Source of the DNA: Comamonadaceae bacterium | GTDB lineage: Bacteria > Pseudomonadota > Gammaproteobacteria > Burkholderiales > Burkholderiaceae_C | Direction: 5' to 3' | Assembly: GCA_947373185.1 (NCBI GenBank) | Contig: CANBWP010000003.1 | Span: 1 to 64,000 of the forward strand | DNA: 64,000 nucleotides | Shown here: positions 54,314 to 55,471 of the stretch, one piece after another | Numbering within the stretch: the first letter of the stretch is position 1 | How the letters are laid out: every line of letters begins with the position of its first letter | The notes under the pieces: model-generated | Databases searched by the model: none | What the model saw: only the letters and a program-made list of their open reading frames with translations | Told to the model about the DNA's origin: nothing | Program-made: the position numbers and the translations under genes

Positions 54314-54586
54314 TCAGTGCGCAGCGGGTTTGGGTTTGTCTGCGCCAGCGGCCTTGACCAAGCACACGATCTTGGCTGGTTTTTCTTTGTACTCAAACTT
54401 GGGGCACGCATCAGGGTTGCTGTTTTTTTCAACGGCATGCGGCAAGGATTCTGGCGTTGATTTAGGCCGTGTGATTTTCTCGGGAATGGCCGATCTTTCA
54501 GGGGCTTTTTTGTCGTCGGCTTTGGGAGCGTCATTGGCAAACGCGTTCAAAGTACACAACATGGCCAACATTAAAACGAATTTCAT
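54314..54586 (-). CDS. Small secreted hypothetical protein
   Basis: A 90-residue protein. A signal peptide (MKFVLMLAMLCTLNAFA, likely cut after AFA) is followed by a Lys/Pro/Asp-rich mature part with two cysteines (PDACPKFEYKEKPAKIVCLV). I chose ATG 54586 because it begins the signal peptide; the frame extends 28 codons upstream without conserved features. A 13-bp repeat and the candidate RNA gene lie upstream on the same strand. Confidence 0.65.
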   Translation of the reverse strand: MKFVLMLAMLCTLNAFANDAPKADDKKAPERSAIPEKITRPKSTPESLPHAVEKNSNPDACPKFEYKEKPAKIVCLVKAAGADKPKPAAH

Positions 54587-54664: not shown

Positions 54665-54719
54665 TTTCATCTAGGCTGAGATCATCATCATAAACGGCAA
54701 GGACGGCAAGTGCAGTTCA

Positions 54720-54753
54720 TAAAAAAGCCCGGCCAGTTCTGTCTGACCGGGCT
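54720..54753 (-). terminator. Terminator of the candidate small RNA
   Basis: On the minus strand AGCCCGGUCAG pairs with CUGGCCGGGCU (11 bp including one G-U) around a 6-nt loop, followed by six T (54726-54721). It lies about 134 nt upstream of the secreted-protein start. Confidence 0.88.
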
Positions 54754-54876
54754 CGACGATGGGCACAAGAGGTCCAAAGTCTGATGCATCTCAGACGGCG
54801 CTTAACGCTGCCTGGACGCGAAGCAGCAGAGATGCCGCTCAGGAGGTGAATGCGAACTCAGATTTCTCAGAGACGC
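54720..54876 (-). ncRNA. Candidate small RNA with own promoter and terminator (unidentified)
   Basis: About 157 nt on the minus strand. Upstream is TTGACC-17-TAAGAT; the 3' end is a strong terminator hairpin plus six T. Between them are hairpins I can trace by eye: GCGGCA/UGCUGC with a UCUC loop, GUCUGA/UCAGAC, and GUCCA/UGGAC closing a junction that contains the second hairpin. The stretch AUUCACCUCCUGA appears unpaired and matches the 16S anti-Shine-Dalgarno end. I recognise no family: it lacks the SRP RNA core, RNase P motifs and the 6S closing stem. Since the small secreted-protein gene lies downstream, it could also be an attenuated leader of that gene. Confidence 0.6.
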
Positions 54877-54882
54877 AGGGCC

Positions 54883-54911
54883 ATCTTAGGACGGCGTGTC
54901 GGTTCGGTCAA
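54883..54911 (-). promoter_or_regulatory. Promoter of the candidate small RNA
   Basis: TTGACC (54911-54906) and TAAGAT (54888-54883) are spaced by exactly 17 bp on the minus strand. Transcription would start near 54876. It is one of the best sigma-70 matches in the window. Confidence 0.7.
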
Positions 54912-55000
54912 GACTGCGGCATGCTGAAATGCTTTGGTTTGATGAAGCTTTGCGTAAAATCAAAAAACACAGACCCTGTCTCAACACACTGTTCGACACC

Positions 55001-55471
55001 ATGGCCAAACTTCCGGACAAACTTCTCCCAGAAAGCTGGCACACATACTTTGCCATGCAAGCCAACAATGCCGCATGGGACCTGGCGCAAACCACGGCGG
55101 ATGCGATCAGTCGGCTTGACCTTCTAGACGCCGCGCACGCCTCGGCTTGGCATTGGCGCCAAGTGGGCACAGAACTCAATCACATGCGCAGCGGCATGCT
55201 GCTGGCCATGGTTCATTCACGCATGGGCATGGGCGCCAGCGCTTGGGCTTATGCCCAGCCCATGCACGCGTTCTTTGTGGGCAAAGCGGACACCCCCGAT
55301 TGGGAATTGGCCTTTGCGCATGTCATCTATGCGATGGCGGCGCATGCCAACGGCCAGGATCAGGTATTTCGAGATGCTTTCCCAGCCGCCGTTCAAAGTT
55401 TGAATGCCATCCAAGACCCAGAAGATCGGGCTGTTGTTCAAAAAACTTTTGGGTTCATGCCAAAACCTTGA
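55001..55471 (+). CDS. Hypothetical soluble protein, TPR-like helical character
   Basis: A 156-residue, mostly helical protein beginning MAKLPDKLLPESWHTYFAMQ and rich in Ala, Met and Trp (ASAWAYAQPMHAFFVGKAD). The even helix pattern suggests a tetratricopeptide-like fold; no family recognised. The frame is open back to 54896 and ATG 54929 is an alternative. I prefer 55001 because a TTGGTT-15-TAAAAT promoter-like pair (54934-54960) falls between the two. Length and start are uncertain. Confidence 0.6.
   Translation: MAKLPDKLLPESWHTYFAMQANNAAWDLAQTTADAISRLDLLDAAHASAWHWRQVGTELNHMRSGMLLAMVHSRMGMGASAWAYAQPMHAFFVGKADTPDWELAFAHVIYAMAAHANGQDQVFRDAFPAAVQSLNAIQDPEDRAVVQKTFGFMPKP

Follow-up and report, generated by a model that had tools for sequence, protein, structure and literature searches.

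The minus strand of the window, by which is meant the whole stretch of 64,000 nucleotides of Comamonadaceae DNA that was analysed, very likely carries a genuine small non-coding RNA gene that is absent from Rfam. At the level of sequence comparison, the decisive proof is that promoter, hairpins and terminator recur in two other genomes, namely G082 from the same genus and G150 from another genus of the family. The initial annotation had proposed an unannotated small RNA gene at this place, a proposal now supported by the absence of any Rfam match and by a conservation accompanied by compensatory changes. A wider structured RNA was found in many related bacteria in the course of this work. Taken jointly, the best reading of the window element, held to be fairly probable, is that of an independent small RNA (sRNA) gene, probably related to this wider RNA, most likely acting in trans and perhaps pairing through CACCUCCU in the present lineage.

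A sigma-70-type promoter was located by motif scan at 54883..54911 on the minus strand, with a −35 box TTGACC (54911–54906), a 17-nt spacer and a −10 box TAAGAT (54888–54883). These are the very boxes that had been named from the letters, and they match the consensus at nine of 12 positions. Two such sites are observed in the 3-kb region versus 1.1 (sd 1.1) in shuffled sequences, so that the promoter match taken alone lies within chance; like boxes are present in G082 and G150. This promoter of its own would drive a five-hairpin RNA of about 157 nt (54721..54877, minus strand; 5′ end placed by means of the promoter and 3′ end by the T run, homologues known) up to a strong intrinsic terminator. 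In the predicted fold on this strand, hairpin 1 (54851..54877; 92.6% of aligned cells paired, one of nine pairs changed on both sides) is followed by the single-stranded CACCTCCT (54841..54848), where each base has an unpaired probability of at least 0.98. Next come hairpin 2 (54821..54840), drawn from the fold and the pair counts, with an 8-bp stem and a UCUC tetraloop, hairpin 3 (54786..54819; 100% of cells paired, with two-sided changes in 3 of 14 pairs) and hairpin 4 (54755..54781; 77.8% of cells paired, one of nine pairs changed on both sides). The fifth and last is the Rho-independent terminator (54719..54754, minus strand), which consists of a 12-pair stem (54754–54725) with eight G–C pairs, a 6-nt loop and a T run, and which is conserved in G082 and G150. 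Its energy is the lowest among 233 T-run positions of both window strands, overlapping positions being counted. The terminator of the initial annotation is thus the strongest of the window, its stem having 12 pairs and not the 11 bp first given. The hairpin-rich body of about 157 nt, likewise claimed at the outset, is borne out by folding energies: the 156-nt transcript folds at −67.3 kcal/mol versus −50.3 (sd 4.2) for dinucleotide shuffles, that is a z of −4.06, with none of 200 shuffles as low.

The surroundings of the element are those of an intergenic gene. As first stated, the region holds no minus-strand protein gene: no minus-strand open reading frame of at least 40 amino acids overlaps the RNA, and the nearest such gene starts at 54586. 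This neighbour (54314..54586, minus strand), a small gene with a signal-peptide-like start, lies downstream of the terminator, begins 134 nt past the end of the RNA and is judged to stand outside the RNA gene. It has no Pfam match and is present in 23 of 90 genus genomes, in several of which it adjoins yebC; yebC also lies beyond it in the window. In three relatives, L082, L091 and L092, a putative short HTH-type regulator gene, as read from the sequence, ends just upstream of the small gene. On the other side, a divergent gene of unknown function is drawn at 55001..55471 on the plus strand; its homologues often align from about residue 28 of the query, which makes 55001 the probable start of the gene. 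It is found in nine of 90 genus genomes with a patchy spread, and distant relatives of it occur on contigs labelled Chloroflexi and Planctomycetota. The RNA overlaps neither of these genes as so drawn. A mechanical plus-strand frame (54759–55127) does overlap the RNA, in a frame different from that of the divergent gene which it crosses. An integron attC site was also considered, on account of one GTTAAGC-like word, and was dropped as a second core site was not seen on reading.

Homologues of the RNA are few and telling. BLAST returned only the own genome among 60 relatives (G082 not being one of them) and nothing in plasmids. A one-sequence covariance model of the window RNA (R1), searched in the 90 genus genomes, own included, found the RNA of G082 at 162 bits; six other genomes were listed with best E-values from 0.014 to 0.99. 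The RNA of G082 adjoins the small gene and yebC, and the divergent gene of the window has no match in that genome. Window and G082 RNAs are identical in 138 of 159 columns; the promoter aligns as well (TTGACG and TAAGAT, at the same distance before the RNA), and the flanks on both sides do not. Across 399 family genomes, R1 gave a full-length match in G150 at 40.1 bits, where a promoter TTGACT-17-TATACT again lies at the same distance before the RNA and where the neighbours are others than in the window; BLAST of this copy in five genomes of its genus returned G150 only. When window, G082 and G150 are counted together, pairing holds in 92.5% of cells, and 8 of 52 pairs are changed on both sides, compared with 3.8 in shuffles (none of 500 as high) and at most one in slid controls, these counts being taken from an alignment fitted to a covariance model. 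The covariation check that had been suggested for homologues thus speaks for the structure, and the preset test, by which relatives should keep promoter, stems and terminator, came out in favour of the gene with compensatory changes in G082 and G150, yet a clear copy occurs in only 1 of the 89 other genus genomes. Weak matches of R1 and of the models R2 and R3 described below (L108–L114, L118–L122 and L128–L143) were not counted as homologues; those inspected (L108, L118–L122 and L128–L143) resemble unrelated terminators or coding sequence, and L109–L114 were judged by scores or alignment row alone.

The same comparisons bear on the idea that the hairpins arose by chance in neutral intergenic DNA. 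It fits with the BLAST result in the 60 relatives and with a promoter match that is within chance, but it does not account for a unit that is conserved in G082 while its flanks have diverged, for pair changes on both sides, or for a promoter kept at a constant distance in G082 and G150. On these grounds and on the fold z of −4.06 it is rejected as exceedingly improbable. Promoter, intergenic body and intrinsic terminator lie on one strand and are conserved jointly, as is typical of an autonomous small RNA gene.

Another possibility is that the RNA serves the small gene at 54314–54586 as a 5′ leader or attenuator, in which case read-through of the terminator would switch the gene on. Both lie on the same strand, with 134 nt from the RNA end to the start codon, and the RNA of G082 precedes the same small gene. 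However, whole-genome searches and searches of the small-gene loci with R1 found the RNA in the window and G082 only, against the 23 genus genomes that have the gene; other neighbours stand beside the RNA in G150 and in the wider family, and the stretch that separates terminator from gene shows no conservation between the window and G082. The distribution of gene and RNA, together with the diverged intervening sequence, led to the rejection of this improbable leader, and an independent gene is retained.

As to known RNA families, nowhere in the window does Rfam 15 give a match that reaches the gathering score, in keeping with the initial statement that the element resembles none. At permissive settings (E up to 10 over 401 bases) there are seven matches, among which 6S, SRP and tmRNA are absent. 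The best of these sub-threshold scores belong to anti-hemB, also called Burkholderia RNA 7 (RF02837, an 81-nt model; 18.0 bits versus a cut-off of 49.5), which shares a C-rich stretch and a GC-rich terminator with the window RNA, and to the Betaproteobacteria toxic small RNA (RF02278, a 64-nt model; 15.1 bits versus 50), likewise a small RNA with a similar terminator. All scores being below the gathering cut-offs, a known Rfam family is ruled out as the identity of the window RNA. Elsewhere, the own genome has a copy of RF02278 above the cut-off (L098, G000:C8:17187-17248, + strand, 54.8 bits versus 50).

In the literature, Burkholderiales-1 is listed as a candidate RNA of the order with no Rfam number in the table (PMC2864571); from this table line, it may be identical with the window RNA or with the wider RNA. 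The table lines on Comamonadaceae in PMC3110155 concern a DNA repeat, BRE, and a term search of PMC8632094 for five betaproteobacterial words gave no hit. Among the open-licence papers listed, none was found that deals with a small RNA of Limnohabitans or with an RNA at the transglycosylase locus. Novelty is therefore understood here as the lack of a match in Rfam 15 and of anything found among these open-licence papers.

The wider RNA emerged from a covariance model (R2) built on the three window-type RNAs (window, G082 and G150), which matched 14 of 399 family genomes with an E-value no higher than 0.01. Once G150 is set aside, the four highest-scoring matches, in G260, G446, G127 and G373 (33.6–41.6 bits), are RNAs of one orthologous locus, all divergent to the same lytic transglycosylase gene; the remaining family matches resemble unrelated terminators or coding sequence, and the nine genomes matched among 399 of the order are the own genome and eight judged to be chance on inspection. 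A further model (R3), built from the RNAs of G260, G446, G127 and G373 alone with the window left out, matches 109 of 286 family genomes and 59 of 141 genera, with a second, weak match in three genomes. Absences in the large searches weigh little, as scoring there was limited to 7 or 11 first-look candidates per genome. In two of the 109 genomes, G150 and G358, the sole match stands at 25–26 bits. For closer analysis, 94 loci were used, namely the window, G082, G150 and 91 others, which cover 92 of the 109 genomes (G082 and G446 are among these loci but outside the 286-genome sample) and which all match R3 at E up to 0.001.

The genomic setting of this RNA is largely constant. A transglycosylase match lies divergently on the promoter side in 85 of the 94 loci, 374–779 bases from the core (median 502), and on the opposite side stands an AsmA-like gene in 51 loci and a DUF349-like one in 26; these three labels are ones that we assign by reading the protein sequences, without family search. 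The nine fetched stretches left have no transglycosylase, and two of them (L241 and L256) keep the usual AsmA-like neighbour. In L219, L223, L227 and L259, neither the transglycosylase nor one of the two usual right-hand neighbours is matched in the fetched stretch around the RNA, which may therefore have moved more than once. Beyond the transglycosylase gene and on the same strand, ZTP riboswitches (RF01750) occur in 8 of 26 loci scanned (L125:3025-3156 and L126:124-255, and also L179, L187, L198, L206, L222 and L257).

The structure of the wider RNA is strongly supported by covariation. Over the 94 rows, 95.9% of cells pair, and 27 of 32 pairs, with 401 cells, are changed on both sides; these 401 cells compare with a mean of 95.5 in shuffles (none of 500 as high) and with at most 76 in slid controls. 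Since a model served as the template for alignments A4 and A10, pair counts lean towards structure. MAFFT followed by RNAalifold on the 94 sequences recovers hairpins 2, 3 and 4 and the terminator. Hairpin 2 has the signature GCAAU-NNN-UUGC, the exact pattern of which is missing in 11 of 94 rows, including all three window-type RNAs. The best promoter-like site lies 70–99 nt before the core in 56 of the 94 loci, compared with 30 nt in the window, by a best-of-scan count with no chance control; this distance suggests that the wider RNA has a longer 5′ part, its transcript being probably longer than that of the window RNA, and a 5′ hairpin is visible in its consensus. Searches of Rfam gave no match at gathering score over the wider RNA in the 26 loci scanned, none at E up to 3 for the RNA of G127, and for that of L191 a ribozyme match at chance level only (14.1 bits versus 37).

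In the genus itself, 30 transglycosylase loci were covered, from 30 of 90 genomes that mostly have two such genes each: R2 found no copy there, and R3 gave a single match (9.8 bits, E 1.1), no better than chance. As the contig of the own genome starts 244 bases before the better transglycosylase match, the usual locus is unreadable there.

The window RNA is most likely a shortened, relocated and diverged relative of the transglycosylase-linked RNA, a kinship that is supported and rather probable; it is not filed as a regular member. With R3, the window RNA is the sole match of the 64 kb that has an E-value of 5 or less (38.8 bits, E 8e-8) and the sole match in the own genome (E 3.5e-6), these E-values being rough owing to a short calibration. 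The RNAs of G082 and G150 score 36.1 and 25.1 bits. A test of layout, by which three hairpins precede the terminator, is passed by 60 of the 94 loci, all three window-type RNAs among them, versus 1 of 274 background terminators, with the reserve that its limits were set after seeing the RNAs, that terminators were called by our own finder and that some background loci overlap. Moreover, the spacing between the terminator and the starts of hairpins 2 and 4 is the same in the window and G082 as it is in L178 and L191, two typical members in which hairpin 2 also has the same size as in the window RNA. Shared features thus comprise the terminator, the three-hairpin layout with like sizes and distances, a promoter-like site upstream and the occurrence as a single match in nearly every carrier genome, whereas the longer 5′ part, the transglycosylase neighbour and the GCAAU-NNN-UUGC signature found in most members are lacking in the window RNA; neither a divergent lytic transglycosylase in the window nor the signature in any of the three window-type RNAs was found.

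These differences could also mean that the window-type RNA is a true sRNA gene unrelated to the transglycosylase-linked RNA, both simply ending in a GCCCGG-type terminator after hairpins. For such a coincidence speaks that the terminator alone accounts for 25.6 of the 38.8 bits, or two-thirds, that the body without terminator scores 2.3 bits with R3 (with filters off, truncated matches can score low) against body noise of up to 10.6 bits in the first 54.7 kb of the window, that a sequence-only body profile did not find the window RNA, and that the signature is absent. On the other hand, 38.8 bits exceeds the level of weak matches over the 286 genomes, where five rows fall under 38 bits, all of them at 28.0 or less and G150 among them; hairpins 2 and 4 of the window and G082 keep the spacing from the terminator seen in the two typical members, and the best four R2 matches after G150 fall at one orthologous locus. 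The two search directions are not independent, as the founders of R3 were chosen for matching R2, a circularity that tempers the kinship. An unrelated origin is on the whole unlikely, and kinship with the wider RNA remains the preferred reading.

Concerning function, the window RNA most likely acts in trans as an sRNA, as judged from its own promoter and terminator and from the fact that it persists while its neighbours change: the divergent gene was not found in G082, the flanks do not align, the neighbours in G150 are others, and 9 of the 94 loci lack a transglycosylase in the stretch covered, although two of these keep the AsmA-like neighbour. How it would act is suggested by CACCUCCU, which stands unpaired between hairpins 1 and 2 in the predicted fold and whose letters equal those of the anti-Shine–Dalgarno end of 16S rRNA. 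This exposed stretch might pair with Shine–Dalgarno sequences of mRNAs and block their translation, a possibility put forward tentatively. The word CACCTCC (CACCUCC in the RNA) is kept in G082; CACCUCCU itself occurs once per strand in the window, which is about chance. Among the 94 aligned cores, CACCTCCT is found in one, the window's own, and ACCTCC in six, so that the wider RNA is unlikely to act in this way as a rule. An anti-Shine–Dalgarno-like stretch is also exposed in the CCUCC-bearing sRNAs of alpha- and betaproteobacteria; their motif lies in a hairpin loop, whereas that of the window RNA is part of a linker, and distant relatives do not keep it.

About equally likely as pairing through CACCUCCU is a role without any base pairing, in which the window RNA would be a structured protein-binding RNA serving as decoy or scaffold. 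This would agree with the compensatory variation in the stems of the wider RNA (27 of 32 pairs) under a constant layout, with the lack of conservation of CACCUCCU, and with pairing energies between the wider RNA and the start regions of three neighbour genes, which gave no signal (55 pairs from every third of the 94 loci, compared with letter shuffles). It agrees less well with the absence of a match to any Rfam family and with the fact that a repeated protein-site motif was not noticed on viewing, without dedicated search; furthermore, the pairing targets covered were the neighbouring genes alone. Pairing is the mode kept in the joint reading given at the outset.

A more speculative and rather doubtful history would connect these observations. 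A structured RNA of the family, usually located next to a lytic transglycosylase gene on whose far side a ZTP riboswitch lies, would have been freed from this locus in several lineages; in the lineage of the window, it would have been shortened, would have gained an exposed anti-Shine–Dalgarno copy and would now be an sRNA that blocks translation.

Beyond the window, a structured RNA that is present in 59 of 141 sampled genera, with strong covariation and no Rfam match in the scanned loci, constitutes a ready experimental target in water and soil bacteria. The window RNA itself represents a case of an RNA that has apparently departed from its usual locus, and it would let action in cis versus action in trans be tested directly.
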